DNA of 64,000 nucleotides from Dacryopinax spathularia (taxonomy: Eukaryota; Basidiomycota; Dacrymycetes; Dacrymycetales; Dacrymycetaceae), in contig JBBPFI010000002.1 of assembly GCA_037974965.1 (NCBI GenBank), positions 2,356,001 to 2,420,000 of the forward strand, given 5' to 3'. Position 1 is the stretch's first letter. Each line of letters begins with the position of its first letter. The notes beneath the pieces are model-generated. The model worked only from the letters and a program-made list of their open reading frames with translations, ran no database searches and had not been told where the DNA came from. This document shows positions 6,578 to 27,872 of this stretch, piece by piece. A program made the translations under genes and the position numbers.

Positions 6578-7039
6578 TCGCTGACAGGCCGGCAACGTCG
6601 TCATAGAATCCCTTCCTTACTCTCAGCCCATGATTTACTCACGTAGATGTTGCCCAATCCGTGTTTTTCGCGTACTCAATGCAACTCTGGCCAGAATGCG
6701 TATTTGATATGAAGTCTTATTAAGCCCTCCGGTTTACAGCAGATGCTCTGCAGGCACACTTGCTCCCCAGATACAATTCACCCACTCTTGCACCACAGTA
6801 TTCAGCGCCATGCCCCTAGTATATGACAGCTCGATTTCATCATATCATGGCCTGTACGGTCCCACGTTCCGGCCAGGAACGTATCTCACCATGTTCCGCG
6901 CTGAATAGGATGGCGGGAATGGAATGTCGCGGACAAGGACGTATGTTGCGGTCAACATCGGATGTCCCTTGCAGGCTGAAATGGGAAAGACAGCCGTCCG
7001 CCCTGCATCGGAAGATGCATCCAGCGAAGAGAACCTGGT
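6578..7039. other. Intergenic: 3' region of the deaminase-like gene, then degenerate repeat units
   Basis: No gene is visible. From about 6900 the sequence begins to carry degraded pieces of the 38-bp repeat described next (GGATGTCCCTTGCAGGCTGA-like and GGATGTCG pieces), so the left edge of the array is gradual rather than sharp. Confidence 0.45.
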
Positions 7040-7835
7040 GAAGATGGGATGTCGTATGTACAGAAGGTCGCAGCCGCTAGATTGGGAGCCCATTTGAAGC
7101 GCAGGATGTATGGGTTAAGGTGCGCCATCTCCCCCTTCAAGCTGGGAAATACCGTCCAGGATGGCAGCTCGCCTGCAACGTCGGCTTTACCGGGCAGGAT
7201 GGGTGGACGCCTTCAAGGTCGGATGTACCGTCCAAGATGGGACGTCGCCTGCAACGTGGGCTTTACCGGGCAGGATGGGCTGTCGCCTCCGAGGTGGGAT
7301 ATACGGGCGGGAACGGGACGTCGCCTGCGGGGTGGGATGTACGGACGAGGATGGGATGTCGCCTGCAAGCTGGGAAGTACCGTCCAGGATGGGATGTCGC
7401 CTGCAACGTGGGATGTACGGGCGGGGATGGGATGTCGCCTGCAAGCTGGGAAGTACCGTCCAGGATGGGATGTCGCCTGCAACGTGGGATGTATGGGCGG
7501 GGATGGGATGTCGCCTGCAAGATAGGATGTCCGGGTGAGGATGCGATCTCGCTCGCTTTCAACGTGGGATGTACCGGTGAAGATGGGTTGTCGCCTTCAA
7601 GGTGGGATGTACCGACGAGGATGGGACGTCGCCTTCAAGATGGGTTATACGGGCGGGGATGGGACGTCGCCTGCTAGGTGGGATGTACCGACGAGGATGG
7701 GACGTCGCCTTCAAGATGGGATGTCCGGGTGAGGATGCGATCTCGCTCGCTTTCAACGTGGGATGTACCGTCCAATATGGGACGTTACCGTCCAGGATGG
7801 GACGTCGCCGTCAAGATGGGATGTACTGGTAACGG
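7040..7835 (+). repeat. 38-bp tandem repeat array, left copy
   Basis: About 20 tandem copies of a GC-rich 38-bp unit. Each starts GATGGGATGTCGCCTGCAA and continues with a TGGGATGTAC core that has two alternating variants, one with CGGGCGG and one with CCGTCCA. The unit length is clear at 7349-7500, where adjacent copies are nearly identical. Flanking units at 7040-7150 and 7500-7835 are more diverged, and an isolated piece recurs near 7890. Because 38 is not a multiple of 3, open frames run through the array in several frames. I treat all of these as artefacts. The same unit recurs in reverse complement at about 26310-26985. Confidence 0.9.
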
Positions 7836-8147
7836 CGCATTGGTTGGTGCCTGGAGCCAGAGGTAACCCGGTCATCATAGTCAGTATAGGATGTCGCCTG
7901 CAAGCAGAGATGTACCCCTCAACATGACTCGTCGCCGAGAGGCAGCAGGTACCGGCAGGGTAGCAGATAAGGGACATGAATAGTTGTGACCTAGCGGGGT
8001 CGTATATGGACCAGAATAACATCATTATGTAGGGTGCATTGCTATCGTAACTAGTAATTTGTGCACAAAAGGACTGACCTCAAGCGCGGGAACGCAAGTT
8101 GCGTACGAAGAGTTCCATGGGCACAACCCATCAATGTCCTCCCCTTC

Positions 8148-10864
8148 TTACCCCCTTGTCTCATCGCACCCGCCGGCGTATTCCTCATGTCCATCCGGTT
8201 CAACGGGGCCATCATCCATGGAAGTGTGATGGCCAGGCGCTCCCGTTGGTTCAAGGGCTGCCCGGGAGTTCGCTTCTTCCTCTTCAGATGGCAAAGGGAC
8301 TAGACCCATATATGAGCAGTATTCGTTACAAATATGCTCTGCAGGAAATGCCATGAAGGCTTCGGCCACATTCCCGCCGCCAAACAGGTCTCCTTCGAGT
8401 TCCCTGATGAAGTGTTAGCGCCGCAGACCGTATGATGACATTGCTTACGGGCTCGTCATGATTTGAGGGTCAGTTAGGAGCGTGCCCCAGCCTAGAGGCA
8501 CCCTGTCAGGCTATTCATCCTTTCGACATGGGTAAGACACTCACCTTGATAGTCGCTCACGTATGCCATTCCCAGTGTACGCTCGTACTGTAGATGTTGC
8601 GTGAAAGAGAGGAAGCGTGCTATCATGCCTTCTTCCCCTTCGCACACGGATGGCACGGCCGAGGCGTTGTGGATATACTTGACGAAATTTCCACTCGATC
8701 CGGTTGGATGACCGATTAGTTCCTCGATCAACATCGTCTGGTTGACTCGTTTAGACTGACCGATGCGGAACATCCCGCAATGGACGAAGCGCAGCTCCGG
8801 TATGTGAGGAATCGGGGTCGGTCCTCCCACGCAATTCTGCTTGCGGATCTCCTCGTACGCAAGATTCAGCAGAGACGCACCCCAAGTCAGGTTCGTCATT
8901 TCGCCCGCGAGATTGGCCTCCTCCAAATCTTTTCGAACCCTGACACCCTTAGCCACCCACCGCTTCACTGCGACCTGGCAACCTCCCCCAGTTTGAGTGA
9001 GCCACGTGAAGTCCTCCTCCCCAGCGCAACCATGGCCTTGACCCATATGCAGCAGCAGGTTTCCAGGGTGGGCGGTCTTGAAGCTCCCGGTTTTGCCCAG
9101 GAGTGACTCGTTCCGCTCGTCCACCGTCAGCTCGCCCATCCTTCCCGCTCTTACCCAGTCGAGGCTGATTCGGAAGCGATCGTTGATCAACCTACTGAAC
9201 GGGATCGTTGGGCCCATGATGAACAGTCCCATCACGCGATATATGCCTGAATCTCTCATTAGAAATGACGCTGGAACATATAACACAAGGAGTCGTACCT
9301 GCCGGAACTTTCGCAGCCTCAAGATCTGCCGAACTGCCCAACAACGCTTGCCGGATGGCGTCCAACCCTGGGTTGCCACCGGCCCCTTCATTAGAGCCAG
9401 CCGAGGTCTTAGTCAAGCGCTGTGTTCGTTTGGCTGGGGGGGATATCGGTGGTGAGCTCATCTGACGACCTCTCAGTAAATCATCGAGCAGGGGGTTTTC
9501 ATGGTACGCACCGAGCGAGCCTCGTCAGGCTTCCTTCGCTTCCCACTACTTTGGCTCTTCTTACCTCCCAGCGTGGCGATGACAGGTAAAGACTCTCGAC
9601 CACTGTAGCGGTCAAGGGGCGCTCCATCCCCATCTTCAATCCCAGTTATCCCGAATTGATGCTCCAAGCCCTCTAAATGCCTCTGAACGGCCGACCACAG
9701 CGAGAACGACATTTCCAGTCGCACCTCGAACAACTTGTTTTTCAGAAATATGGGTACACCGGCGCTTTTGGCTTTGCCCCCCTGTCGCCCGAAACACTCG
9801 TGGTAGAATAGAGGCTCGTCCGGCGCAAATCGGTCGTAGTCGGTACCATTCTTGCCTCGCAGCTTGAAGTCCGAAGCCGAGAACTGGAAGCCCTGAGTCT
9901 CTTCTATAAGACCTCGCTGTAATAATTTGAAGCACGTGTCCTTGATCATGGGGCCAGTACTACGTGCAGGCATGGATTGCATGTCCTCGAAATTCTGCGA
10001 GCAAAGTCAGATGTTGAAACGCCTCTGCCTCGTTATCTCAGCTGCGAACCCGGAATAGTTGGGAACCTGAGCGGCCTGGCTCCACAAAGTGCACCGCAAA
10101 TTTCACCCGTATCGTCTCGGGCTCAACTGGGGCATAGGCTCTCGTGAGGAACTTTTGCCGATCGGTTTCATAATGGTGGTGATTCGCGGTATACCCTCGA
10201 GTGCCGACAAGCGCTATCGAAGAGCGACTGAGCGACGTGTCGATACCGGCGGCATTCAAGGTACCGATGGCGGCGACGCTCGACCTGCTACCTATAGATC
10301 CGTCTTAGTCTCTCATGGTTCGTCTCAGTCAGGTGACTTACCTCCGCGCTTGATGGACTCATTGAGACGTCGTAATGCTGCGGGATCTGGGACGGCAGCA
10401 GCTCGTCCAGACTGAGACGATGGGTAGTTGCCTATCATCGTAGGGCGGGGCCGCACGGCAGTCGCTCGCACTTTCGTACCTATCTTGTTCTGATAATGCT
10501 GCCAACAAGGCACGCAAACCGGCTCTGCTCGATTATTCGCGTTGATCATTTGATGAGGTTGACCGGGGGCGATGTAGCCGAAATGCTCAGGTTGAAGGCC
10601 CGGCTTGTCAGCGCCGGCTGTGATACAGTTCTCCCGGCGTCGACAGTAGACCGGCCCCTCCGATCTTTCAGTCAGGGCGGCCGGGGCCAGGAGCAACTCC
10701 TCGTCGTGTCGAAGCCGGCTTGTAGGGTACATTACCGGGTTGGACGCGTTTGACGGGGGAGGCGGGACGGGCGGGTGGTGAAGCTCGCGATTCACCTCGG
10801 TGGGGCGCTGCCGCTTTAAACCAAGTCTGCGCTCATCCAGATCACCCAAACTCCACGTACTCAA
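8148..10864 (-). CDS. Alpha-type (eEF2K-like) protein kinase
   Basis: Atypical serine/threonine kinase of the alpha-kinase superfamily, which is hugely expanded in Agaricomycetes. Reading downwards from 10864, exon 1 (to about 10342) carries a Cys-containing segment (YCRRRENC ... VCVPCWQ). Exon 2 starts at 10291, and further exons lie about 9982-9490, 9461-9300, 9240-8560 and two short ones. The kinase domain fills the C-terminal third: CQVAVKRW (the ATP-binding Lys), FVKYIHNASAVPS, EGEEGMIARFLSFTQHLQYE, LTDPQIMTSP (catalytic Asp region), GGGNVAEAF (the family's Gly-rich loop) and HICNEYCSYMGL (zinc-binding His/Cys set). All hallmark motifs are present, so it is probably active. The two smallest exons, around 8400-8540, carry the LTDPQIMT motif and are missed if splicing is ignored. 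It lies inside the repeat-bracketed compartment and may be cargo. Exact exon edges at 10047 and 9490 are less sure than the domain call. Confidence 0.85.
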
Positions 10865-12390
10865 GCGGACCGGGCCGTTAAAAAAAACTCTGCTTGGCGA
10901 CGCCCGATCCAGGAGGCGATAATGCGAACGTCGCCGACTTTGCCCATCATTGATGTCGAGATTGCCTTCTCACACGGTGGCAGCTTGGCCGGCCTCCAGA
11001 GCATCGCTCCAGGCTGGGCCGATGGGGTGTCTACCGCGCATACCGCAGGCTGTCGTGATTTCCACAGCCAAGGAAGGGCGGAATGTACAGGCCCAACCCG
11101 TCCCTGATGACTATGGCAAAACGGGATCTTTGCCCTCAGGCCGCGTGGTCCCGCTACCTTGGTCCTTTTCGGTCCCGTCACTTTGGGTGTAGAATTGGGT
11201 TCTTGTCCTGGAAAGCGGGCTTGCCCGCGCATGCTTCTCTCCTTCATCAAAACTCCGTGTCCGACAGACATAATCGCTGCCCCTGTCGCAATACGGTCAC
11301 CACCAGTCTAGTCACTGGCCAACATCGTCATGGATCCATTCCGTCCGTAGTCGTAGCCCGTTCGGATCCCAAATGCTTCTATCAGAATTGCCCGCAAGGG
11401 TACGTCCTTCCCTCCTCGTCATTGCGATTCCATCAGCTTCTTCGTCTGCGTTCGCAGGCGATCATTCAGGCGTTTCCATGCCCGGCATCAGCGGGTCGCG
11501 TCTAGGCTTTCAATCTTTCCCCTTGCTCACGTCCCCAGTCACTTCTATTCGCGCGCTTTCGATCCCCATCCTTCTCGACTTCTCCTGCCGGTATCCACCG
11601 TCTTAGCCCGATTCATCGAGCTCCGAGCTGTCACCGCGTTTCAAGTTAACCTTCCCCCGTCCTGTGTCGTACGTCCGATTACTTAAAATAGCTGCCCTAT
11701 GCTTGACACGCTACATGCCGATTGGTCGCGCAGTCCCATCGCTTGTCTTCCCTCACTTCCCACCGCACGGTACTAGTTATTCTCCATCAGCGGGTCAGCC
11801 GGAGTCAGACGGCATAATATTAAATAGCTCCATGGTAGCGCTGGTATCCCGTTGGGGCGGTCCCATGTACTTTGGCCGCCGGTCGGCGGAATGCCGAGGA
11901 GGCTACCCTCGATTACGCCAAAATTCCTTGGTCGCTTGAAAGGATCCAAGGAAGCGGAGGATAACGGTTTATTTCACGCTCTAATACAGCCGAGTTCCGC
12001 ATACATGCTTGGCAGGCCTCGTCTCGCCGAATACATGCATTCTACCTTCGTAATCAGTACTATTCAGCGGTTTCGGCGGTTGGATACGCCCTGCCATAAT
12101 GTCTCGATCAAACACGTAAGGACACCGTGATTCTGTCATAGAGATCGAATATGAGGTAATTATATGGGGACAAAGATACCGACATCTTCTGAAGACCACC
12201 TCTTCCTTGCTAGCCGTTCTGCTCTGCAAGCCGATGCCATCCCAACGGACGTCCGTTCCATCGCAGCACCGTATCAGATGGTACCCAGTCCATATCCCAA
12301 AGGGCAACAGAGTCGGACTGTCCTCATTCATTTTGCCTTCAACGTCCGTACGGCTTGGCGTGGCCATCCTAGCCAATCTCATCCGCACTG
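10865..12390. other. Gap between the alpha-kinase and the integrase side
   Basis: Promoter side of the alpha-kinase. Several short frames overlap on both strands (for example around 11083-11505), with pyrimidine-rich runs at 11500-11640. None has intron continuity or a motif that I recognise. Confidence 0.4.
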
Positions 12391-12705
12391 ATGTGGTGCG
12401 ATACTTGGCTACGACATCTCCTGGCTCCGCAACCTCGACCATACACAGATCCGGTAACCGAATCGGCCTGGGAGGTGTACGACTGGACGCTCCGACATCG
12501 ACTCTTCACGCAACTGGCGTATCCCCACCTATGGAAGGAATCTCTCGCTCATATTAGGAAGATTATAGGAGAGGAACCGGAGTATGCGGCCATGCCTCCT
12601 CATGAAAGAGCTTTCAGTATTCAACTCATTGTCTTCGATTTGCTCGACGCTACCGAAGCATACATGGTCGACAGAGACATTCGCTCCATTGAACTACAAG
12701 GTTAG
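12391..12705 (+). CDS. Short hypothetical protein (104 aa)
   Basis: Open frame of 104 aa, beginning MWCDTWLRHLLAPQPRP and rich in amphipathic, protein-like sequence (LRHRLFTQLAYPHLWKESL, FSIQLIVFDLLDATEAYMV). The composition looks coding rather than random. It could be an exon of a larger gene, since an upstream open frame starts at 12164. I do not recognise the family. It precedes the integrase on the same strand within the compartment. Confidence 0.35.
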   Translation: MWCDTWLRHLLAPQPRPYTDPVTESAWEVYDWTLRHRLFTQLAYPHLWKESLAHIRKIIGEEPEYAAMPPHERAFSIQLIVFDLLDATEAYMVDRDIRSIELQG

Positions 12706-13156
12706 GCATGCGCGTTGCTCCGTCCGAAAGGCAGGACTCTGATAAGTGCGTTGTGGGCGATCCTCTAGGATTACCGGGCATTGCCGAGTGCTCATCCGCA
12801 AACGAGGACCCGACTTCGCACGGTCCTGACGAGTTCTATCTTTGGTGCAGCGTCCACGGCTAGTATGGCGTAGAATTGGTGTGCATGGGGCTTGACGTAT
12901 GCGCCCGTGCTCTGATGTATCCGGTTTCATGCTATTAAATTCCCCTTTGAACAATCGACATCAAACTCGGCAGGCTGTCACTTGTTAACCATAAGCCAGA
13001 CCCAAGACGTTCGGGTCTGGGTTGGGTCTCCAGGGTCCTGTCCAAAGAGCCATGCTTCGAGGCAACGCTACGGCTCGCTGGCAGATGCAAGGGTCATGCC
13101 CCCACCTGGTCGATTTCGTATCGACACATCCCCGAACGAACGACTTGTAGGGCACA

Positions 13157-15026
13157 ATGTTGCCTATGGATGCCTCTGCAACCTCCATTTCGTTCTCGCC
13201 CCCTGGATCCGCAAGGAATCGCAATCAGCATCGGCCGAGCGGTAGGTTGGCGAGTCCTTTCGGCTCCGGCTGTACTTACCAGCGGCTGTTAGTGCCCGAC
13301 GCGGAGCTCAATGTCCTTATACCAGTTTATTATCGACGTGGAATGAGAGATGGGGACATCGCGGAGGCCATAAAGAAAGATGTGCGAGCTGCTGAACGAG
13401 GGCTGACCTTGGGGTGCGTACATTTCAGTTCCCACGATACCGAGCTAGGTCTAACATGGTTTGTTAGCGCTTGGACTGTGCGCCGCCGGAGGAAAGAGTT
13501 GCAGCTGCTCAGTGTGCGCCAACAGAGACACAATCTCGACACCATCGCGCGGCACATCGAAGAGGTGCGGGACGAATATGGCCCCGGGGGTACCAAGCGA
13601 ACGGCCGATTGGCTGAGATTGAGCGATATACATGCGTCAGAGTGAGTCAGGCCGATGTTAACGTGTCCCTCGCATCGACTTAGAGTATCATACCAGGAAA
13701 CTAGTTGGAAAATATAACGCCACCTTCTACCCTGAGGAGGTTGCGCGACGTAAAAGCCATCGCTTTGCTCGTAGAAACTTCTGGTCTCCAGGCGTTTTTG
13801 CCTATATCGCGGTCGACCAGCACGACAAATGGGGAAAATACGGACTGTGGCTTCATCTGGGAATGGAGACGTTCTCAGGGGCCCTCCTGTGGCTCAAAAT
13901 ATGGTGGACAAATAAGAACCCTCGACTTATCTTCTCCTATTATTTGGAGATGGCTCGCACCTATGGAGGTTCGTACACTCATGAATATTCGGATGGGAAG
14001 TGACGGCGATCGACAGGGATTCCCCTGCTTACGCAGAGTGATCCTGGCAGCGAGAACAATGGCATTGCTAATGGCCACAGCATGCTTCGTCAAAGACTCG
14101 ATCCTAGTCTCATTGGCACATCGCAGCATATAATCAAGCGCGGTCATGGCAATATCAAGCCTGAAGCGAAATGGTCACAATTTCGGAAAGAACTGAGTCC
14201 AAGCTTCGAAGACTTATTTCGCCAAGGCGTGGTCGCTGGACTGTACGAACCTGGGACGCCGATCGACAAGTACGTGTTATCCAGAAACTTCGTCCACACT
14301 CTCAATCCGCTTGCTGTGCGCAGCTTCGTCTTTCGCCGCCTCGCCATTCCTTTCATGCAGACTCGATTGGATGACTATGTCCGCATGCACAACAACAGCA
14401 AGCCACGGGCTGACAAGAATAAGATCATGCCTATCGGTTTCCCGCAGGACATTCTCGATCACCCCGAGAGACACAAGGGGGCTCGCGATTACCGTGTCAG
14501 TCCATGCATGCAATCGTTAGAGCCTCGTCCCTTCTCACACCTCTCGGCTCAGGTATTTGTAACCGAAGATGATCTGGGGGCCGTCGAGGCCATCTACGCC
14601 CCTCCGGATCATCCCGTATTTGAGTTGGTTCCTCCAGCGTTCGCAGCGGCATTTGATTACCATTATCAAGGTCCCCGTCATGGCTACTCTTGTGGTCGCT
14701 CAAATCGAGACTGATCTCCTTGTCCAGCCATGGGTTCTCCTCCCGTCACGAAAGCGACTTTTTGGGACATTTACCGGCGCATTCGAGGAGCGCTTCTGTC
14801 CTGCCCGAGTACGGAAGCACTGCAAACCACCCTTGCAGCCCGAGCGGAGGAGGAAATGATCATCGAAAACGAACACATCGACCTCTGCCCCTCCTACGGA
14901 GAGGTGGATGAAGACACATTTCCCGATTTTGGTCTGCGCATGGATGTGGATCAAGAAGTACCCGTCCCAGGTCAGCTTGTACCGGAAGTAGGCGACCTGC
15001 TGCGCCCTTCGCTCACCCGGCAATGA
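13157..15026 (+). CDS. DDE integrase of an Agaricomycete mobile element
   Basis: Intron-bearing integrase-like protein. Order of parts: an N-terminal helix-turn-helix-like segment (VLIPVYYRRGMRDGDIAEAI, then WTVRRRRKELQLLSVRQQ), then an RNase H-fold catalytic core. Candidate acidic residues are the Asp in IAVDQHDKWGKYG (near 13815), the Asp in LLTQSDPGSENNG (near 14040) and the Glu in NIKPEAKWSQFRK (near 14163). Downstream is the family-typical YAPPDHPVFELVPP stretch, and the C-terminus includes TFWDIYRRI. Short introns near 13413-13471, 13632-13700, 13970-14030, 14272-14321 and two further downstream keep the frame open, as is usual for this family. It closely resembles, from memory, integrase core-domain proteins found in many copies in Agaricomycetes. 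Element class uncertain. It looks whole. It is followed 0.4 kb later on the same strand by the RAD9-like gene. Confidence 0.8.
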
Positions 15027-15408
15027 CATGTTCCCGTTCCGGAAGAGTGAACAGCTTCGAAGAGGCAGTTAGTCAAGACCGCTGGACACATCTGCACCGT
15101 TGTATCGCCTACTAATAATGCTCATGCTTCGTTGCCGGAAAAATGGTCGACCAGGCCCTCTCTGGGGGCTGGGTCGATGTTGAACGATCGCCTCCTAGGG
15201 TGGACGGCACTGCGTCTGCAGCCAACTCCGCGGCGTGCGCGGAAGCAATTGGCGCATATAACGGGGCTCCTTGTCGTGCATCCTTGCCTCATTACCACCA
15301 CACTCGCAAGCTCAACGCTAAGTACGCTCAACATAGTAGCATGGCTCCCACAAGGAGGACGATATTCCAAGCCGAGTTGAGTATGGCCAACGTTCAAAGT
15401 GAGCAAGT

Positions 15409-17436
15409 ATGTCGTACTTGGTGGACGCGTCTGATGGCGTCCCAGCACTGGTGGACATCCTCAAGTGCCTGGCGCGCTTCGACGACGAGTTAGACATGCA
15501 GGCTTTTGCTACAACCGTGCGCGTTCAGGCTTTATCGGGACACGCCTTCCACTGATGCCTAGCTGCTTAAGCTTGTCTTCTCCGCCGTCAACCCGGCGAA
15601 ATCCGCGTGGGGTGAAGCATCGCTGGATGTATCCTTTTTCACGTCCTATTATGCCGAAGCCCGCGACGTATATGCTCCCTCGGCCTCTCGCGTGACCGAC
15701 CATACACCTGCACCCGTCCACGCACGGTTGAAAACTAAACTCTTGCTTTCGCATCTTCGGAACCGCAATCATCGACGTGGCGTCGCCAAGGTCATCCTTT
15801 TCATCCGAGATACCGTGCCCGCTGGCGGGGTCGAGCATGGAGATGTCACAGATGACTCAGATGACGAAGAAGGAAGCATCGAGGGCTGCTTCATGGTGAA
15901 GTTTGTGTGCGCGTATGGTAAGTGAGCGCATATAGCCTCCTAAATGCGCTCCGATATTCATATTCTGATGCATATATTCGCGTGGCTTAGGGGTTACGAA
16001 GGTCCACCGACTGATGCTCGACGAACCGGTTGTAGTTCTCGCCCCCCATGATGACGACATGGACAACCTTACATGTGCTGTCCTGAGCAGCGCCTGCCTG
16101 GGTAGCCTCCTGGAGCGCATCAAGGTCAGTGCGGACATGGCTGACGGGCAGGCGCAGCTCACCATCCGGGAGGAAGGTATGGAGGTCAAAACTATGGCTG
16201 GTAAGTACGATGAATCCACCCAACCTTGCCATCCGCTCCCTCGTCATCCCCTCATACTTATACTCGACCCCAGATAAGCGTGCTGTCTTCACGGAGATCG
16301 ATATCGCGTCAGAGGATCTGAATGAATACCGCTATGGTGCCGGCGATATTACGCTGTCTTTCCCTGTGCGAGAGTTTGCGGTATGATCTGATGTTGCCAT
16401 GGTATATCCACTGACCCCACGCAGGCGGTGATGACTCTGGCGCATGACGTTATCGAGTCCGTCAAGATCAAGTTCGTGTTGCCTCCTGCCCCAATGCGAC
16501 TGTACATCACCCCTTTGACGAACGGGCTCGGAGCCACTAAGTCCAACTGGTCGTTCCAGTCCTACATCGCCACTAGTGGGCCCCTCGATTTTTCCGGATC
16601 GCCGTCGGCTGCGAAGCGATCTCGTGGGCGGTCCTCCTCGCGCCCTGTTAAGCACCCCAGGTTGGCGAGCCCCTCACCTTCCCTGGGACCGGGCACCCGT
16701 GTGACGGTCCCTGATCCCGCGGCCTCTTCGGAGTCGGTACTCCTTCCGCCCGCGCCCCTGTCGGAGGTGCCCCAGCCGGCCGAGTCGCCATGCGCGGCCG
16801 ATCCCGCAAGCCTCTCGCCCGTCCCGGCTATATCCCTGAAGTCGTCGCCGCCGGAAGGAGCTGCGGCCCTGGCAGTAGCTATCGCCCCAATCTTCAATCA
16901 GACAACCTTGGTCCCCGGTGCGGGCCTATCCATGCCAAAGCCGAGCTCAGATGATCACGCCGGCCCTTCCCTCCAAGGGTCAATATCGTCGCGGCCTGTT
17001 TACCAAGAACTTGTCGCTTCGGAACATGCGCTTCTGTCCACGGCCGCACAGCAGGAGGTTTATGAAAGGACTGGACTGGCTCTGGACCAGAACGATCTGG
17101 AAGACATTGAAATGTATGACGAACTGGGAGGGGCCGGACACGAGCCGGCTTTAACGCATGCAGACGCTTTGCCCGCGCCCACTCAGGAGGTCAGGGATGG
17201 CAGGCTTCGGTGTGGCTTATCACTGACAGATTCTCAGTCTCTGACTGCCTCGCCTATGTACATGCCCTTGGTGAAGGACGAGATGGAGGAAGACGAAGGT
17301 TTGTTTGACGATGCGTCCATCGATTTCGAATGGCCCGCTACGATCTCGAAGGTTTGCATGCTCCCCAACACCCCGTGTGCAGACCAATCTAACATCGATG
17401 CTCTCCGTGCAGTTCCAACCGCTGTTTGACGACTAG
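15409..17436 (+). CDS. RAD9-like subunit of the 9-1-1 DNA damage checkpoint clamp
   Basis: Six exons (15409-15522, 15563-15917, 15991-16200, 16274-16380, 16425-17351, 17413-17436) join in frame to 578 aa. The first about 320 residues follow the Rad9 PCNA-like fold: LVDILKCLARFDDELDM, then FSAVNPAKSAWGE and SFFTSYY in the places where Rad9 has SLSATNSSKSAY and FFSRY. These are followed by CAYGVTKVHRLML (Rad9: KHGVVKTHKL) and TEIDIASEDLNEYRYGAGDITLSFPVREFAA. The C-terminal half is a Pro/Ser-rich tail ending FQPLFDD, like the short acidic end of fungal Rad9 tails. In the checkpoint, Rad9-Rad1-Hus1 form a ring loaded at damaged DNA, and the tail recruits TopBP1/Rpb2-type partners. Sequence similarity is real but modest. 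It could be the host's only RAD9 or a diverged paralogue carried by the element. Its end faces that of the next gene. Confidence 0.68.
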
Positions 17437-17610
17437 CCATAGCGCAGCAGTCAGTACGAGAGTGTATGCTCTGGCAAAATCCCGTTTCATATCGCTACCG
17501 CAAGGGGGCCCCAAGTGTTGTATCACTACGCATCAATATCCGGACTCCAGAGTACAGTATCCTTTGTACAACTATTATACAATAATGGAACAATTGACCC
17601 GACCTCCATC

Positions 17611-19881
17611 CTATTCTACGTCCTTATCCTTCCAAGCAGGAGGGCGGAAAACGTTCTCGAGCGTCCTTCGCAACATCCTTATCACCGCGCGAGCTTCTTT
17701 CTTGTCGAGGCCAAAGGGGTAACAAGGGTAAAAGCTGCCCAGACCCTGACAGGTATCCGGCCGGCGCTTAGCGGGCAGACGTAGCCACTCGCACACCGCG
17801 CAGCGGCCGTTTGGGTGTGCAGGGGATTGCAAGCAGAGCTGTCAACAGTTAGCCTGGCGCGTTTTAGTCGCGCCACACATGGGTGCATACCTGTAAAGCC
17901 TCAAGAGAAGCGGGGTCTCTGAGCAGCTCCTGGTAGAGAGCACAACGTCCGTCTGCATGGACGCATGCCCCCTCACATGTCGGTGTATCGGGTGTGATAT
18001 CGCGAACTGAGTAAAGAACCGACTCGGGGTGGATGTAAGCGACTGGGTCAATCTTTTGGGAAGGCTGCAGCGCGAATCGGAATTCGGCTGGTCGGCGATC
18101 GCCCACGGAAGTGAGTATGGACACCGACGACATGTCAAAACTCGTATTACTATCGAGTTGGACACCCGGCGAGCAAGCGTCTGGCCGCGGTGTCGTATTT
18201 TGCCCAGTGACCACAATGAAGGGTATGCCGGAAGGTCTGACGTCTTCGGGTAACCGTCGATACGCGCTGGCCATTCGCCGCCCTGCTTCCACCCAAAACG
18301 CCAGGCGTTTCAGCAGTTCCCATAGTGAAGGTGGATCTATCATGCCCGCAGCGTCTGTAGCACGAGGATGAGGGACTTCGTAGTCATCTGCAAATAACAG
18401 GAAGAAAGGCTTACATGCCTGCTTTCTCAGATACGCTCGAAGTCCAATGCCGTCATTTCTCAGCAGCTCTTCGAACACCATCGTTGTTTCGGACCTCACC
18501 CCGTTGCCCGTTGCGCGGAAAAAGACGCAGGACCAGAGGACCTCCAGGTGGGCATGCAGACATGTGAAAGCCTGCCTCACGAGCCGTAGTGCCTCGGGAG
18601 GAAGTTGAGGTGTGCCATTGCGAACCGCGGGAATGAGCGGAATGTATTTTTGCAGGATACGAGCTTGGCCAAATACTGCTCGGAGCAGTACGTGCAGCAT
18701 GAAGGCCCAGTTCGCATACGTAGCTGGACCCCATATGCCCACGTAATACGCGCCACGCTTCTGTACAAGTGAGCTCCATAGAGAGTGCGACGGTGAGTCC
18801 CCCTCTACTGCTGCCTCTTCCGACTTCGCCTGAATGTAATCCACGGTGAGAGGGCTCAGGGGAATTAACCTCGTCTTGGGTCTCGCCCGGCCTGGTACGC
18901 TCTGTAGCCTCCAGTCCTCCACCCATTGCAAGAGGTACTCCGAGTCCAGAAGGGGGTAAGCAATGTCGGCCAGGTGGTTCCAAACCAGGTATCGAACGAC
19001 CCGACTGGGGTAAATCAGCTAAGCATCAATTTCAATCGCGGTAAGAGCTCCTCACTTGGACCAGTCCGCCATACACACGTCCGGAACCAAATCCTTCTCC
19101 TGTAAGGGACCTCTTCGTAACATTCCCAGTAGATTGCGCACGAGCTGCGTGGGATCGCCACAAAAGCAGGTTTCGATGCTACAAGCATCAGCGGCATTCA
19201 TCGCAGCAAGGAAGTAGGTACCTGTGGTCAATGCGCTGGAGCAGGTCTTCAAAATCTTTTCCTTCGTCGCAGAAGCGAGCCACGCTCCACGTAACGGGGC
19301 ACGCCGCGCGGCTGGGCTGACGGTTTTCACGCTGAGCTACAGAACGTCAGAGGGAAACAACCGCTGTGGAAGCCACACACGGACCTTCAGGGTGATTGGT
19401 TCCCGCTGAGTCGGGTGGTGAATAAGGCAGATACTGCACGGCAGATAGCCAGGACTGTTGATCTCTTTCGAACGAGAGCGCCGTGCACGCCTCCCGGAGG
19501 ACATTGTCCCCGCGATCTCGTTGCAGAATCCACGCAATCACGTGCAAGACGGAAGGAAAGCTGGACCCATGGGCTGAAAATGGGTTGTCTTGGTGGTGGG
19601 CCGAGAGTCGGGGTTGGATGGCAGACTCCTCTGGGCTGCCATTGCTTCTGCCTGAGTGGATGGAGGCCAAGAGGGCCGACAGCGATAGGACGGCCAGCTG
19701 GGGAGAGGGGGGGGCAGCCTGGGCCGTCCGTGCCATGATCAGCTCGGTGGGGGCCTGCGGACTGCGAGGGATAAGCTCCTGTTGAAGGGCAATATGTTGG
19801 ATAGTAGTAAAAAGTGCCAATAGAGGCTTGGTTGGCGTGGTGGTTTGGATTAAGAGACTGAGAGACACCGCCTTCAGCCAT
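17611..19881 (-). CDS. Unknown multi-exon protein in the integrase/PIF1 compartment
   Basis: No family recognised. Reading downwards, coding texture begins near 19880-19868 (overlapping open frames make the exact start unclear). It continues through TCFCGDPTQLVRNLLGML (near 19140), an intron, then LIYPSRVVRYLVWNHLADIAYPLLDSEYL (from about 19020), a 355-residue open stretch to 17893, an intron, and a final exon to 17611. The C-terminus is Cys-containing: CEGACVHADGRC, then NGRCAVCEWLRLPAKRRPDTC, ending WKDKDVE. This suggests a small metal-binding tail. No membrane segment is obvious. It lies tail-to-tail with the RAD9-like gene and just downstream of the PIF1-like gene on the same strand. Presence of clean introns argues that it is expressed rather than decayed. 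Confidence 0.5.
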
Positions 19882-20135
19882 TACGCGCTTGTAAATGCCC
19901 CTCACTCCAGCGTGACAGCACACGGAGCCTTTCCTTGATTGTTGTTCCAGAATGACCAAATGGCCTGCACTGCCACTCCTAAGAGAAGGCCATTCATTAC
20001 TATATATGGCAGGCAGGCCGAAGAAGCGTGTGCGGAAGGAAACCGGGATATATTGTAGTAGCCGAGAGACCCTTGCCGAGAGGCAACACCCGACAAGAAT
20101 CGCACGGCGACTACAAGATAGAAGCAGCCCATTGC

Positions 20136-22711
20136 TTAACCTCCGGAGCTGTCTTGACCTGAACCCCAATCAGCTGGGGAACCCGGGCTATGCGGGCCAC
20201 CTGTGCATACCAGAGACAAAGGGAAGCGTTCGACAGAGAGGCCATCAGGGTTTGTTGCGCGGGTCAACGCTGTATAAATGTGCCCTGGATCCCCTTTAGA
20301 CACCTTACCACACGGCAATCACAATCACAATCACCGGGCGCCCATGCTTGTTTGGCTTTTACGACGACCCAATCGAGGCTATGGCCCTGCAAGGCATGTA
20401 CGGTCCCCGCATACGCTTGGATGATGTCCAGCTGGCCCATCACGCGGACTAATGAGAGCAAATCAGCCGAAAAGAGGGGAGACTCACTTGCCGGCGATAA
20501 CCAATCATACCCCATTGCCCCCGCTTGCTTTCGGCTTGTGGCTCTTTCATGTCGACTTCCCAGTCCCTAGGAGTCAGTAGTACGATCTTGCAGCATCGGT
20601 CGCCGAATGCCGTGAACTCTACGATGGGATAGCGAATTTGGTGGTACTGAGGCGCTGACGTGTCGTCCGTCATGAGCTGAAGATTGTCCGCGCAAGGTGC
20701 CGATAGTTCTTCGAAGGTGAAGCGTGTCACGTCACATTCCCTCTCCAACCATTCGTTGCTGGTGACGAAGCCGCGAACATAGCCAAAGCGGCCCTTGACA
20801 AGCTCAGGATCTTGCCCGAAGTTTCGCAGCAGTCGCACCCAGGTTCCTACTTTGAGCAGCAACGTAAACGGCACCTTCGTCCGCAGGAAAAGATCCTTAA
20901 CTTTCCGAGCGGATAGATTCTCGCGCCAAAGGACGTCGTAGGCTCGAAATCGGAAAAGATGTCCAGGAAGATCCCGCACGCGTTGGTCATTATGACGGGC
21001 GACCGCCGCCAAATGTGTAAGTCTGTGGTAAACATATATGAACGTATCGAGCACGAGGTTGCATGACCTACATGTAGACGGGCTCCGTATCTGGGGGCGG
21101 GGTTAATTGTCGATCATAGGTCTTCAATAGGTCCATGGATGCTTGACTTAGGTTTTCATTTCGGATCTCGTTCAGTAGTTTTAAGAACTCTGAGCCAAAG
21201 ATGAGCATGGACCCCGCTTGGAGAGGCACATGAAGAGAGTTAGAGGCAACCTTTATTCCTCTGGCGGTAGACCTGGGTAAGCATGACTGTGCTGTCTCGA
21301 CCGGGGAAGCAGAAGTTCCAGCAGGCGGCTTGGAACGCATATAAGCCTTCTCTCTCCTCGTACTTGTTAACGGGAGGGAGCTGAAAGAAATCCCCCGTAA
21401 ACACGAGCTGGGCACGTCTGAGCCACTAAGCAAGACAAGGCGAGCCATACTCACCTGAATGCCACCGAAGGGTTTATTGCATTGACGAGTTCGACGACCC
21501 ATGCGGTCAAGGTAATCCAGAACCTCGGCACTGAGCGACCCCACTATGATAGTAGTGAAAAGCCGGCACGAATAATGTGACACCGAAGTACTCACTTTCG
21601 TCGCAACATAACAAGTCCGTGCTGGTCCAGTTGTTCAGCGCGTCCGGATCGCGGGAGATCTTCGCATGACGGTGTTCAAAATCGTCTTCCCCTGTCCCAA
21701 TTCCGGCCCATTTATGTATGGTTTGTCCTCCCACAAGGAGCGCCGCCAGGTTTGTTGTCACCGTGATGGCAACACGTTTGCTTGGAGCAGCACACCGAAC
21801 TATCTCTTGAAGAAGGCGTGACTTTCCGCATCCTTGACACGCGTCAATCGACCCATACGCATTCACAGAGCTAATCTCATACCCGCGGGACCGGAGAAGA
21901 AGACGTTTTGGCCCGCATCCACCCGTTTGAGAATCGTACGTTGTTCGTCATTCCATTCTACAGTGCTGGTGGCTGGAGCGGGAAACTTACGTTCCACCTC
22001 GGATGGCGCGGTCGGTATTGGGAAGACTTTGGGCTTCACTATCGGAGGATGGGGCAATGCTGACAACTTATGGAGGGTTCGCTCTTTCGGTGGGCTGGCG
22101 TCAACACCACCGGAACGGGAAACGCCTGTGCCCCGCCTTTCTGACTCAATACGAAACCTCGACCGGAGTTCGAGGCTGGCGCTTGGCGCGCTGCTGCGAC
22201 GGGCAGGTGCTTCACTTGAGAGCTCGACGCCGTGCGACAGCGGCACAGACTCCGAGGGGGGGTTTATGCGGATAGGGGGGAGCGCCTTGTCAGGATGGTG
22301 CGAGTCTGTCTTGCGCACACGCATTGGCACGAGGTATCGCTCATTGTGGGCTGGGGCATTCGTGAAATCGAGCGGGGTTATCAGTGGAGAGACACTCGAC
22401 TGGCTATTAAGCATGTCGAGCGTCTCGGCGAAGTCGGCCTGCCAGTATAGGATATCATCTTGATCATCAGATATTGTTTCAAGTAGGTGATTGTCGACAA
22501 GCATCTCAGCTACGGATGGTGCAGGGCACCGGACGTGTACAATAGGCACTGTTGATGGCGGTTGCCAAGGATTTAAAGGCGAGAGTAACGCGGTTAGGCG
22601 ATGCGACGCGACGCCGAACCGCCTTGGACAACGCCGAATCTGCCTCCGGTCGTTCATATGGGGTAAGCGCCTGACGGGCGCCTGCACCGCTGACACTCTG
22701 CATCATCCTCC
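20136..22711 (-). CDS. PIF1-like superfamily 1 DNA helicase
   Basis: ATP-dependent 5'-3' DNA helicase of the PIF1/RRM3 family. Order of motifs, reading downwards: a low-complexity N-terminal region of about 230 aa; WNDEQRTILKRVDAGQNVFFSGPAG (Q-motif and start of Walker A, near 21890); after an intron, GCGKSRLLQEIV (Walker A end); TTNLAALLVGGQTIHKWAGIG (motif Ia); a DE-type Walker B region with LLCCDES; FGGIQ then LVFTGDFFQLPPVNK (motif III, near 21400); VMLTQVYRQR (motif IV); LKVGTWVRLLRN; IIQAYAGTVHALQGHSLD (motif V) and IYTALTRATN (motif VI) near 20250. All main SF1 motifs are present, so it looks functional. The N-terminal start (22696 or 22711) is unsure because two frames are open. It is head-to-head with the next gene. 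Known PIF1 relatives are frequent in fungal mobile elements, but host PIF1 genes also exist. Confidence 0.8.
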
Positions 22712-22760
22712 TCAACAGACTTCCCCCCGCAGACGGCCAAGGTGTGACTATGCGACCACG
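22712..22760. promoter_or_regulatory. Very short bidirectional promoter between the PIF1-like gene and the (+) unknown gene
   Basis: Only about 50 bases separate the likely start codons of the two divergent genes (about 22711 on the minus strand and 22761 on the plus strand). Such a gap forces shared control or overlapping 5' UTRs. No TATA-like box is evident. The call depends on both start codons being right. Confidence 0.35.
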
Positions 22761-25700
22761 ATGACGGACCCCGGCCACACCGACGGTGACCGAAATGAAG
22801 GTAACGATGGACGGGGCGAAGCCGCCGCGATAGATGTATTCATCCGGGCTGGCGACGAACTGCCCGCCGATATGGGAGCCGAGCAAGTGCGAGAAGTAGT
22901 GGTCGCGCGCTTGCCGTCGTTCGTGAAGACGACCTTGGAGGTATTATCGGACATTGCGGAAGATAAAACAGGTATGGAAGGCGGCGCGGAGAAACGGATT
23001 AAAGTGCTCCAGAGACAGGCCAAAAGATTGGTGAGGGGGCCGGAACCGGCCGACTTGAGACATCCACTGACTCTGCGATGAGTCTATATACTCCCGCTTC
23101 TACTACTATCTCGGGCTGGCGAACAAGCATCCTCATCCGCTCAAGGAATCACTGTACCGCTTGATTCACAGGATGGACTTGATGTGGGAGCAAGGAGACC
23201 GGGACGGCTTCGAACGATGCCAAGGCCAGCTGGACATCGAAACGCTGTCCGATCTGTATTTTTACAGCACTCGGTGCGTCGACCGATCGAAGCTGGTTCG
23301 CTGTCCTAAACCGGCTGGTTTCGTTGCCGAAGATGGTAGCGTGGGCATTCAGGCGACAGATCAAGGTCGGCGTCACTCAACGAAAGTGCCCTGGATCGTA
23401 GTCCTTCGGATCCTCTTCGGACAGCTTGCGACTGGTATACTTGGACAGCTAGGGGAAGGCCCTACAGTGGCGAAGGACGGTGGTGTATGTGCGCCGAAAG
23501 TGGTGCAAAAGTGGCTAGACGGAGTCGGCAAGTTATGGGTGAGTGTAGTGGGGCTGAATTGGACTCGGGCTGACGGAGCGGCAGTACCTGATTTCGGACG
23601 CCGCACGAACGCTACAAATCGGCGTCTGGCCAGCATGGCTACAGATCAAGCTCGTCCAACATCTCAAATACGCTGCCGAAGCCTGTATGCTGTTGGATCT
23701 CGATCCGCAACAGACCATATTATACGGCGGCTACCTGCCCCGGGCCTTTCAAGCGTATGCCTTAGGTGAAAGGCCGTGGATCTACTGTCGGCTGACACCG
23801 GGGGTACCGTGTTTGCCAGACGAAGGTAAATGGTGGGAGGAAGACCGCAGCGAGAGCTTTTCTCGCGAGACGAGATTATGCCAAGCTCTGCTCGACTCCC
23901 AGTTTGGTCCGCGACTGATGGAGTCAGAGTGGGTGGCGCCGTCTTGGGACCTCAGTAGCTCAAGTGACAAGTCAGTGGAGCTGTATCTATACCATGCGAC
24001 GGATCACTTGGTAAGCAAACTCTCGCGTGCGTCTTGACCCGCAGGTGGTAACGACCGTCCTGTCGCTAGACGGCATATTTGCTTCAATGTCGTATCGCTG
24101 GATTGGAAGTCCCCGCCCCTATGACCAATTTGATATTGACCAAAGTGGTTCACCTCAAGTCGTTGGTGCTCACGATGCCGAAAGGCGAGTCAACCGTGGC
24201 GATACCGATCCCAAAGAACCTTTTTCCGCGCGGTCAAATAGCGCCTGCGTATACCGATCGATGTAGGGCTGTTAAGGCGTTGGATAAGAAGGACATGCTG
24301 GACATCGTTTCGCGTCTCTGGAAAAGGCAAATTGACAAACTCCTAACGGAGAAGAGTCGGAAGATGCCGTTCGATGAGTGGGTGTATGCTGTCGTCGAGC
24401 ACGCTGTAAGTGTACCGGTATGTAACCCCAGACATGGAGCTTATGCATGAGACAGGGCGTGTTCTATGCTACGTACCACCGTCACGAATACGTGAAGTTC
24501 CAACGGCACCTGCTCGTGCAGAAGATGCTCCATCGCGCATACATGCACTTGGCGGGCCAGATTGCTGCACCCATGACTGCGATGCTCGACATCCGCAACA
24601 TCCCGGACTACGTGCGCCACGCGTCGGCTTCTGCCTATGGGTACACGCCAGAGAGACGGGGAGAGGAGATGCGTAAACATCTTGGACAGTCGATCCGAAT
24701 GGCAGTGGGCCGGGCGACCGCTTTGGATCGACCGGAGGAGGCGGCTTCGCACGAACCTGCTCAGCCGCCTGTCGTGCGATTTGCTAGCCAACCTACGATT
24801 CACGAGTACGAATATACCGAATCGAACTGGGCGGATGGCGGGACGGGAGCGGACAAGGCACAAGCTGAAGAAGGGGATGTTGTCTATCCAGTGGGCTCGT
24901 CGGAGGCAGCTGCGGATATGTTGAATGACGCGTCCGCGCTGCCTCATAACAGCCCTGCAGTTGACGACAAGCGGTGGACTGCCGAGTGGAACGAAGGTGG
25001 GATGGATCCGGAGACGGACGACACCGAAATGGACCTGACGGTGTCAGATAATGAGGCATCCCGCTGGCCGTCAGATCACGACACGGTGCAAGACGACCAT
25101 GTGCCCTGGAGCGAGAGACGGAACCCGACGGCGGGACCGTCCATCGGATCGGGTCGAGCGGCATGTGGCTCGCCAACCGAACCACAAGAAGGCGATCACT
25201 ATCTCGATCCGCCCGCCGACCAATCCGAGGATATTGCGCCAGCAATTGCAGAGTCCAGTGTGCTAGGGAGTAGCCGACCAACCGTGGCGGATGATCCTTT
25301 ACGGAAGACGCTGAAATGGTATTACGACAAGGCGCGGATATCTTTCGAGGTACCCATCTGGATCGCTTTGACGAATGCGAAGGCTCGGTCTTCCACAGTG
25401 TACACTGACGATAAACGGATGTCAGCCGTCCATCAGTTCGATCCTATCTTCATCGAACCGGAAGAGTTGACAGCGGGACTCATACGACGATGGGGTTGGG
25501 TCGCTACGGCGAAACCCGGAGGCTGCACCGTTGTGGTAAGTCAGAAAAGTGCAATGAGGAAGGAAATAACACGGCGTAGTTCGCTCATGGCCCGTATCGT
25601 TGTCGAGAATGCCAAGCATCGGCACACCCAGAAGATCCGCCACCCCGATCCAAGCGGCACGACGCCCGTGGTAAGTCGTTGAAGCCGAGACAAGAAGTGC

Positions 25701-26090
25701 ATCGAGGGTGCGAAGTACGAAGAGAACCAGAGGAAGACGAAGATACGGAAGAGGTCCCGCGCTATCGACTCACAGAAATTTGCGTGTCAGTCCCTTTCGA
25801 AAAGTGCCTTTGTTGCAGTGACAGAGGTCGGACGTGTGAATACTGCAGTCCGGACCTGAAAAACAGTGAGTTTAACCAATGACTGTGCTGCCGAGTCTCA
25901 TCCACATTTAGTCCCTCGAAGGGTATGGTTCCAGCCCGTCGAATGCTGGCAGGCAGGGAGGGTGCCATCCATGGCGCAGTTGTTCGATTGGTTGGCCGAA
26001 CTTCAAGGATGGCGAGGTAAAAGACCACCGAGCAAGCACGAAAAAGCATTCGCTAGTCGGGCTGAACGAGGAGGAGGGACGCGGAGGTAG
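22761..26090 (+). CDS. Unknown large multi-exon protein, divergent from the PIF1-like gene
   Basis: No family recognised. Exons read as: MTDPGHTDGDRNEGNDG... (22761 to about 23070), then FYYYLGLANKHPHPLKESLYRLIHRMD (about 23097 on), ILYGGYLPRAFQAYALGERPWIYC (near 23730), VVTTVLSL and PAPMTNLILTKVV (about 24040-24150), then 24447-25680, a long frame that starts in globular sequence (YHRHEYVKFQRHLLVQKMLHRAYM) and turns into an acidic, low-complexity tail. The last part has a Cys cluster KCLCCSDRGRTCEYC (near 25810) and ends in a basic, Gly-rich stretch at 26090. Junctions are approximate. The coding texture and the steady run of short introns suggest a real gene. It could be an element-specific DNA-binding protein because of the Cys cluster, but that is a guess. 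Confidence 0.5.
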
Positions 26091-26309
26091 GAGGGTAACT
26101 AATGCCAATAGACTGGGGGTTTAGAACGGGACAGTGGATAGCCGCTGATGTCCGTGACGGAAACATGGATTTTGTAACATACACTGCAAGGGTCATCCGA
26201 ATGATTGATTGTTTTACGGGACAACCGTAGCCGCTTCCTACCTCCTAATGCTGCGACGGGCGTCGTCTCGTGTTGACGCTCTATATGCCCTGTTGCAGGC
26301 GGCATGCCA

Positions 26310-26985
26310 TCCTCGACGGAAGGTCCCTCCCTCAACGCGAGCTCGCATCCTCCCCGGTATATCCCAGGTTGCAGGTGAGATTCAATCCTCGCCGGTACAT
26401 CCCGCCTTGATCTCGACATCCCTTCTCCTCGGGTACATCCCACGTAGCAGGCGACATCCTCTTCGCGCTGATACATCCCACGTTGCAGGCGAGATCCCAA
26501 CCTGGAACGTACTTCCCAGCTTGCAGGCGACATCCCATCCCCGCCCGTACATCCCACGTTGCAGGCGAGATCCCAACCTGGAACGTACTTCCCAGCTTGC
26601 AGGCGACATCCCATCCCCGCCCGTACATCCCACGTTGCAGGCGACATCCCATCCTGGACGGTACTTCCCAGCTTGCAGGCGACATCCCATCCCCGCCCGT
26701 ACATCCCACGTTGCAGGCGACATCCCATCCTGGACGGTACTTCCCAGCTTGCAGGCGACATCCCATCCCCGCCCGTACATCCCACGTTGCAGGCGACATC
26801 CCATCCTCGAACGTACTTCCCAGCTTGCAGGCGAGATCGCTTTCTTCACCTGTACATGCCGCGTTGAAGGCAACGTCCCGACTTGAAGACCAGTTCCCAT
26901 CCTGTCCGGTAAGGGCCACGTTGCAGCCAACGTCCGGGTCTCGGTCGTACATCCCACCTTGCAAGCGAGATCCGATCCTGCCCGG
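26310..26985 (-). repeat. 38-bp tandem repeat array, right copy (inverted)
   Basis: About 17 copies of the unit seen at 7.0-7.8 kb, here on the opposite strand (TTGCAGGCGACATCCCATCC and so on). Copies at 26480-26830 are nearly identical to each other and to the central copies of the left array, and they show the same two alternating variants. The outer units (26310-26450, 26860-26985) are diverged. The overlapping open frames are artefacts of a 38-bp period. Confidence 0.9.
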
Positions 26986-27343
26986 TCAAGGCGACGGTGC
27001 AAGTAATGTTCCATGCTGATGGCGGATCATAAGGTGCCAGAGGCAGACCGAGGCCGGGGAATATCGTACGGGTCGCATGCCATATGTCATTCAAAGTGGT
27101 ACAAGCTCCTGGGTTCCTTTCGACCTACCCATGAGCCTCTATACGGTCCCATAACGACGGTGGGGAAGGTTGCCGACGGAGGAGTGGCGTAGATCAAGCA
27201 GTAGGAAGCTGCGCAGGACGATACGAAGGAGGGAATAGCTACAAATGGGATGGAACTGCACGCTCCTGGGATGTACCACATAGTTGGCCGTAGTCGACTA
27301 CATGAATATTGACGTCTATGTGAGCTAAGTAAAGCTTCGGCAT

Positions 27344-27872
27344 TTACATAGCGTTCGGACTCTCGGGGGCATGACTAGAAGACGCCAACGCCGCACAGAG
27401 CAGAGGCCGAATAAGTTGAAAATCGGACTGCCAACGTGCATGGATCTCCAAGAGTTGCTTTTCGTGTTGACGAAACAGATGACGATGCAGGCGTATGAGC
27501 TTGGGATGCGGAACGGCGCGCGCATGAGCAAGTTTCGAGAGACGCAGCCAGTCGTCATGATGTTGTCGAGCTACTGATTCCTCTTCTTGGGCCATGGAAA
27601 GGGAGAGCTGACCGAGCACGGAACAAGTTGGAGAGTTGTATGGAGTGAGGCCGCGCTCATCTAAGGAAAAGAGAGGTAGAGTAAGGCACAGCTAAGGGGC
27701 AGAAACTATGTAGCTTACATAGCGTGCGTAAGGCTGATTCACATTCAGTGCGAATGGTGCTGAAAACGACAACGTTGGTACCATGGGTCTGTGGTAATGG
27801 TGAGCCTTGTCATCATACAGAGAGAGCCGGCGGGCGGACCGTTCCCATGTCGAAGGGACCGAGATTGTACAT
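27344..27872 (-). CDS. Small hypothetical protein (about 139 aa)
   Basis: Model on the minus strand: exons 27872-27840, 27788-27719 and 27660-27344. The frame is kept across introns of 51 nt and 58 nt (the second has clear GTAAGC ... TTAG ends). The product begins MYNLGPFDMG and continues FSTIRTECESALRTLYERGLTPYN, then QEEESVARQHHDDWLRLSKLAHARAVPHPKLIRLHRHLF, a charged helical stretch rich in His and Arg. The last exon alone (from an internal Met at about 27595) could also be translated. Function unknown. It lies just outside the right repeat array, so it is the first gene of the ordinary-looking region. Confidence 0.5.

Follow-up and report, generated by a model that had tools for sequence, protein, structure and literature searches.

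What kind of DNA lies between two arrays of one 38-bp repeat that stand about 18.5 kb apart in opposite orientations, and does it move? The arrays lie in the window, the whole 64,000-nucleotide stretch of DNA analysed here (C2:2356001-2420000, C2 being the second contig of the assembly). The original prediction took the interval to be a large mobile element with subterminal repeats, carrying a DDE integrase, a PIF1-like helicase, a RAD9-like clamp protein, an alpha-kinase and two large genes without assigned function.

The arrays probably lie inside a giant DDE-type DNA transposon

In a single genome (29.2 Mb, 24 contigs), judged from its intron size and transposase type to be probably that of an agaricomycete, a DNA-level search with the interior of the element turned up similarly ordered blocks on C2, C5 (two blocks), C8 and C15. 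The original prediction had asked for other copies to be sought; they share gene set and order with the window, with the core inverted in two of the six. Termini were read where the C2 and C8 copies, about 95-98% identical when the arrays are excluded, cease to match: TACGGAAACGCTAAGTGAACAGG stands at one terminus and is reversed at the opposite one. The window contains it at 3750-3772 (1 mismatch) and 30537-30559 (0 mismatches), where 100 shuffles led us to expect none. This comparison of near-identical copies places the ends of the element at window 3750-30559, a length of 26,810 bp.

The window element is bounded by 25-bp terminal inverted repeats (TACGGARACGCTAAGTGAACAGGTC), located by a shared-end scan across copies at 3750..3774 on the + strand (the gene A end, TACGGAGACGCTAAGTGAACAGGTC) and at 30535..30559 on the - strand (the gene I end). 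Immediately outside them, sequence comparison among copies identified the target site duplication GACTC on the left (3745..3749) and on the right (30560..30564). With A or G allowed at one position, the terminal repeat had 12 full matches genome-wide, which form six facing pairs; all 12 ends have 25 bp in common, of which one base varies. The six elements so defined, spread over four contigs, are C2:2263550-2289972 (26,423 bp), the window element at C2:2359750-2386559 (26,810 bp), C5a at C5:138297-164664 (26,368 bp), C5b at C5:186899-212865 (25,967 bp), C15:285063-311331 (26,269 bp) and C8:1216261-1263962 (47,702 bp). Perfect 5-bp target duplications flank 6/6 elements, every one different: GACTC in the window, then GCGGC, CTACT, CTGAA, CCGAG and CGTCT. 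Because the same 25-bp ends are combined with six different perfect duplications, transposition is established, and we put at roughly 80% the probability that the interval with its arrays forms the core of a giant transposon of DDE type occupying window 3750-30559.

The original prediction of a large mobile element with subterminal repeats is thus supported, and the terminal inverted repeats and target duplications that it asked to be looked for are present, but its extent needs correcting. The arrays are ruled out as the ends of the element: the left one is 3.4 kb and the right one 3.7 kb inside the termini, so that the duplications are not just outside them, and they bracket only a core, with further conserved genes (A and I) on the outer arms.

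C5a and C5b are 99.0-99.8% identical over the four genes compared. The C8 copy diverges from the C2 copy 36 bp short of the right end, where it has about 23 kb of other sequence (C8:1240773 to about 1263926, 36 bp inside the gene A end), probably a nested insertion. Two further candidate ends, C18:35540 (3 mismatches) and C6:61010 (1 mismatch to a 16-mer), had no facing partner and were dropped, and a genome scan of the end motif at up to 1 mismatch found no short derivatives with these ends. When the flanks were joined in silico, the longest open frames across the predicted empty sites measured 168 aa in the window and 175 aa in C2.

Eight genes recur among the copies

In the window the order is gene A (+), array, alpha-kinase (-), transposase (+), Rad9-like gene (+), gene E (-), PIF1 (-), gene G (+), array and gene I (+). 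To follow these genes we compared all open frames of the element of at least 25 codons with the fetched parts of C2, C8, C15 and C5a. Eight genes recur in other copies, encoding a DDE transposase, an alpha-kinase, a Rad9-type clamp protein, a PIF1 helicase, three proteins without assigned function and one leucine-rich protein. Genes A, E and G, the kinase, the transposase and the Rad9-like gene were found in all four copies; PIF1 was found in C2, C8 and C5a by frame comparison and in C15 by a separate PIF1 search; and gene I was found in C2 and C8, the corresponding arms of C15 and C5 being outside the comparison.

The IS3EU-like DDE transposase (13157..15026, +) was modelled as six exons (13157-13413, 13468-13641, 13697-13968, 14017-14269, 14324-14670 and 14728-15026) from a spliced model and an alignment with other genomic loci. 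That alignment revealed the in-frame intron 14270-14323, whose 18 residues were retained in the protein used for the Pfam, genome, structure and NCBIfam searches. In this protein, the integrase of the original prediction, the conserved D, D and E (in DQHDKW, QSDxGSEN and E.KWSQ), which we infer to be the catalytic triad, are unchanged in 9/9 other aligned genomic loci, and the gene recurs in the copies; its match to Pfam rva_4, however, scores 20.3 bits, below the curated cut-off of 26, and there were 0 matches to NCBIfam or, by profile, to solved structures. As a query against the genome, the transposase returned 81 matching pieces at roughly 18 loci.

Pfam matches of spliced models confirmed the alpha-kinase, Rad9-like and PIF1 genes between the arrays, single unspliced exons giving far weaker matches or none. 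The alpha-kinase (8151..10969, -; 7 exons modelled, 5' end provisional) matches Pfam Alpha_kinase at 50.2 bits (E 4.3e-13) and is conserved in the copies. The PIF1 helicase (20145..22504, -; 8 exons modelled, 3' end provisional) carries the motifs GPAGCGKS, DE, GDFFQLPPV and QGHSLD and matches Pfam PIF1 at 117.6 bits (E 8.3e-34). The Rad9-like protein (15409..17429, +; 5 exons, 594 aa) matches Pfam Rad9 at 71.5 bits (cut-off 25; E 9.6e-20) over profile positions 2-238 of 253, and solved human RAD9A weakly (E 0.09); it thus resembles the Rad9 subunit of the 9-1-1 clamp along most of the family profile, with putative binding to Hus1 and Rad1. A Rad9-like search of the genome that admitted E values up to 1 gave 17 matches, of which 7 exceeded the cut-off, with Hus1, another 9-1-1 subunit, serving as a control that has one locus.

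Two large genes without assigned function, likewise foreseen between the arrays, are genes E and G, both recurrent in C2, C8, C15 and C5a. Gene E (17611..19736, -; 5 exons modelled) rests on a spliced model and on genomic homologues, with 23 matching pieces in the genome; its large exon has no Pfam family, and its profile had 0 matches among solved structures (PDB) at E 10. The large, many-exon gene G (22842..26069, +) was recognised by exon-by-exon conservation with the copies and by dN/dS. On the outer arms, gene A (4195..6574, +; several exons) is 39-60% identical in amino acids to the other copies, exon by exon, and shares a cysteine-containing region with gene E (E 4e-5), while gene I (28612..30252, +), leucine-rich by eye, is 33-36% identical to C2 and C8 and has no Pfam family (best E 0.12). 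A weakly shared open frame at 27410..27646 (-) shows 28-47% identity over 32-81 aa with C2, C8 and C15. Window 10,970-13,150 has no open frame in common with the fetched parts of C2, C8, C15 and C5a; this kinase-transposase gap is longer in the window than in C15 and C2.

Pairwise dN/dS between copies was estimated by NG86; dS is close to 1 or higher, which makes the figures rough. Between C15 and C5a the values were 0.07 for the transposase, 0.24 for Rad9, 0.18 for E, 0.13 for the kinase, 0.10 for G and 0.21 for A, and between C15 and C2 they were 0.07, 0.23, 0.15, 0.14, 0.09 and, with dS saturated, 0.06, respectively. Constraint looks weaker between C2 and C8 (0.22-0.66), where we obtained 0.35 for the transposase, 0.57 for Rad9, 0.36 for PIF1, 0.53 for E, 0.66 for the kinase, 0.53 for G, 0.22 for I and 0.36 for A. 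C5a and C5b gave 0.44-0.48 on few changes, with PIF1 lacking synonymous differences. Distance saturates dS for most genes of the window copy, whose transposase is 69-71% identical in amino acids to the others; gene I of the window against C2 gave 0.35 at a dS of 2.2.

The Rad9, PIF1 and kinase genes, recurring as they do across copies, are not random cargo. They might still be passengers that take no part in transposition and instead act, say, against silencing or on the host, and we give this a little less than an even chance. Roles of that kind have been proposed for the TET/JBP genes of other fungal transposons. According to the parts of PMC12730594 available to us, fungal transposons carry accessory enzymes likely to act against silencing, and an alpha-kinase is a known companion of IS3EU elements. 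Against passenger status, the Rad9-like gene is present in 6/6 elements and adjoins E and PIF1 in two distant relatives as well (C5:988870-996629, which has a transposase match, and C8:143415-154390, which has none), and there is purifying selection on Rad9 (0.23-0.24) and the kinase (0.13-0.14). Recurrence and selection together show that the element uses these genes, but not for what.

The paired arrays change quickly but keep a 19-bp register

The array unit of 38 bp is made up of paired 19-bp halves bearing the motif TGGGAY and forms higher orders of 76 and 152 bp. In the window, Tandem Repeats Finder (TRF) detected the forward array at 7134-7785, with periods of 38 and 76, and the reversed array at 26346-26879, with periods of 38 and 152. 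A unit scan that includes weak copies widens the arrays to about 6851-7934 and 26300-27003, the weakest copies (22-24 of 38 bases) scoring no higher than 4 stray matches in other parts of the window. From TRF, unit scan and motif comparison together we place the left array at 7134..7830 (+), with TGGGAY facing inward, and the right array, the same unit inverted, at 26282..26890 (-). Their longest facing arms measure 418 nt with 82% complementarity, and two alternating variants, ..GCTGGGAAGTAC and ..CGTGGGATGTAC, were located in each array, so that the opposed repeats and shared variants of the original prediction both stand. Arrays spread widely through the genome without the genes, which it had named as evidence against mobility, were not what we found: all 21 genome-wide matches to the unit pattern at up to 3 mismatches fall inside the two window arrays (reversed-pattern control, 0 matches), which rules out a widespread satellite.

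Arrays were examined in five of the six elements (the window, C2, C8, C15 and C5a), and an inverted pair lies at the same place in 5/5. TRF periods are 152 with 303 and 455 in C2, 152 in C8, 114 with 228, 341 and 455 in C15, and 114 with 342 in C5a. Across the five copies TGGGAY points inward 142 times and outward once, and 117/132 spacings are exact multiples of 19 (129/132 within one base). Among moduli 10-45, 19 fits best, with 86 spacings fitting 38 and 8 fitting the next; in the window core outside the arrays only 1/17 spacings is a multiple of 19.

We measured array likeness as best-match identity of 38-mers, for which a shuffled control gave 0.51. Left and right arrays of one copy are alike (window 0.84/0.88, C15 0.89/0.93, C5a 0.94/0.94, C2 0.99/0.94), those of C8 less so (0.73 and 0.88, over a stretch that passes the TRF limits and includes some non-array sequence). 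Between copies, likeness was 0.49-0.58 for the window against the others, 0.52-0.65 for C15 or C5a against C2 or C8, 0.67-0.69 for C15 against C5a and 0.72-0.94 for C2 against C8. High likeness within copies and low likeness between lineages indicate that the arrays are common to the copies, change fast and are kept alike inside each copy.

Alternatively, the arrays could be inverted minisatellites that evolve neutrally, bind no protein and stay similar through gene conversion, with any inversion of the core a side effect. We consider this unlikely, though it is well worth keeping in view: turnover is rapid, the window arrays resembling the others about as well as the shuffled control does, and inverted repeats recombine anyway, yet nothing in neutral arrays requires the 19-bp register (117/132), the single strand (142/143) or the one position in 5/5 copies. 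Our own reading is that the arrays are putative binding platforms, which a protein of the element would read in 19-bp register. More tentatively, the cysteine-containing region shared by A and E could mark an element protein as the candidate reader.

Distant relatives of gene E (L053 2555-3352 and L054 2531-3429) adjoin other tandem arrays, some of them TGGGATGT-rich, with periods of 351, 94, 87 and 173, none a multiple of 19.

The core is inverted in two of the six elements as assembled

In the window, C15 and C5a, the kinase side of the core adjoins the gene A arm, whereas C2 and C8 have the gene A arm on the G side and the gene I arm on the kinase side. The two ends also differ in type: motif comparison revealed a second GCTAAGTGAACAGG motif at the gene I end only (30509..30522 in the window, -, 1 mismatch), 28 bp inward in 5/6 elements and broken in C8, and a second GCTAAGTGAACAGG at the gene A end in 0/6. 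The end types of C5b are like those of C5a. Since arm genes and end types agree, the core of about 18.5 kb is inverted in 2/6 elements (C2 and C8) as assembled, with breakpoints in or beside the arrays. Given how closely these two copies are related, one old event may account for the flip in both.

Assemblers can be misled by inverted repeats, and the inverted core might be an artefact of this kind at the arrays. This is improbable, because the same orientation was assembled in two copies that lie on different contigs and are 2-5% apart, and because end types and arm genes concur. Less credible still, to the point of having almost no chance, is a non-mobile segmental duplication of host RAD9, PIF1 and kinase genes beside unrelated minisatellites: the genes are intron-bearing and host-like and PIF1 has many relatives in the genome (90 matching pieces), but the same 25-bp inverted repeats bound 6/6 blocks, and the six differing perfect 5-bp duplications contradict it.

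A model for movement and core inversion

For a DDE-type transposon of this build, family knowledge suggests that the transposase would bind two unlike ends, with one GCTAAGTGAACAGG motif at the gene A end and two at the gene I end, and would join both to target DNA with a 5-bp stagger. DDE transposases act on unlike ends in Tn7 or Mu. Recombination between the two inverted arrays would flip the core and keep the arrays of a copy alike, which would explain both patterns together.

The Rad9-like protein, PIF1 and the alpha-kinase may act on host checkpoint and repair to allow copying of the 26-kb element or refilling of the gap that its excision leaves; judged from sequence, this has a real but minority chance, about one in three. 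PIF1 drives break-induced replication in yeast. The fullest version of the model, which we hold to be doubtful, is that of a transposon whose own checkpoint-clamp subunit, PIF1 and kinase form a kit for repair or break-induced replication, its core isomerising between co-evolving, 19-bp-registered arrays that load this machinery. If so, DNA synthesis that depends on recombination would go along with the movement or amplification of a 26-kb element. The yeast 2-micron plasmid, whose amplification is driven by flipping, offers a loose parallel to this repair-kit reading. In the IS3EU literature consulted we met no such mode.

Transposition is said, in the portions of PMC6431247 at hand, to become less efficient with growing distance between the ends; despite this length penalty, the present family, with its recurrent and constrained genes, is mobile at a length of about 26 kb. 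That a transposon keeps a Rad9-type clamp protein and PIF1 suggests that the element may handle checkpoint or long-tract repair itself. The paired arrays, fast-changing in sequence and persistent in register, strand and pairing, accompany a visible core inversion, and the exact ends and duplications offer a handle for finding relatives in other fungi.

Comparison with known transposons

The closest known kind is the IS3EU/GingerRoot transposons. IS3EU families have TA..TA termini and usually, not always, 6-bp duplications (PMC10045372, in excerpt). From the passages seen of PMC12730594, TET-bearing IS3EU elements of rusts have TAYGG..CCRTA ends, inverted repeats over 30 bp and 6-bp duplications, and all TET-bearing IS3EU elements have an alpha-kinase opposite in orientation to the transposase. 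The present element is alike in its TACGG..CCGTA termini (TACGG at 12/12 ends), its integrase-like DDE transposase and its kinase (-) opposite to the transposase (+). It is unlike them in its 5-bp duplications (6/6), its 25-bp inverted repeats, shorter than those described from the rust families, and its Rad9, PIF1, genes A, E, G and I and paired arrays, none mentioned for IS3EU in the consulted parts of PMC10045372 and PMC12730594; no TET/JBP gene was seen in it. As termini and kinase agree, duplication and repeat length differ and the transposase falls below the Pfam cut-off, the element is IS3EU-like, likened by published descriptions, and not a proven member. In the openly licensed PMC literature, which covers the field in part and lacks most subscription papers, we found no IS3EU element reported to have Rad9, PIF1 or arrays of this sort, nor any transposon reported to encode a Rad9-like protein.

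Other large elements differ more. Polintons (Mavericks) are likewise giant, with an integrase and terminal inverted repeats; they encode a protein-primed DNA polymerase B, usually together with capsid proteins, and their duplications are usually of 6 bp. No Pfam family of DNA polymerase B or capsid was found among the element proteins scanned (part of the exons). Fungal Helitrons share a PIF1-type helicase and can be large; they have an HUH Rep domain and are without inverted repeats or target duplications, whereas inverted repeats, target duplications and a DDE transposase are all present here. Starships use a tyrosine recombinase, unlike the DDE transposase, inverted repeats and duplications of this element. 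Like it, both Starships and the KDZ transposons (Zisupton, Kyakuja, Dileera) are large fungal elements with accessory genes, and KDZ duplications are 8 bp (Zisupton and Dileera) or 7 bp (Kyakuja) in the sections of PMC12730594 consulted, against 5 bp in 6/6 cases here. The nearest parallel that we found for the inverted middle is Teratorn of medaka, described in the available text of PMC6431247 as a giant DDE-type element with inverted repeats and two subtypes that differ by an inverted middle. In Teratorn, according to the same text, a piggyBac transposase is fused to a herpesvirus over 41-182 kb, whereas no virus gene was seen here.

Related loci elsewhere in the genome

Further relatives of the transposase occur as near-identical pairs or with PIF1 nearby (C8:809k/C4:938k and C2:2958k/C7:111k), which makes further families of such elements likely; the stretches beside a more distant pair (C8:796001-803000 and C4:945001-952000) share no homology. 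Rad9-like loci outside the elements include C3:1068k, C1:2528k/C8:320k and C5:1823k. Two sets of Rad9-like loci, C1:2528701/C8:319927 and C4:1012613/C17:256624, form inverted pairs whose members are almost identical over 3.3-3.4 kb (99.9% and 99.6%), apart from the listed transposase loci, and are perhaps other mobile DNA with Rad9-like genes. Finally, one and the same weak Rad9-like match flanks, on either side, the mirrored 14,375-bp intervals at C10:1139224/1153599 and C2:1810554/1824929, with PIF1 matches inside them at C10:1151692 and C2:1812320.
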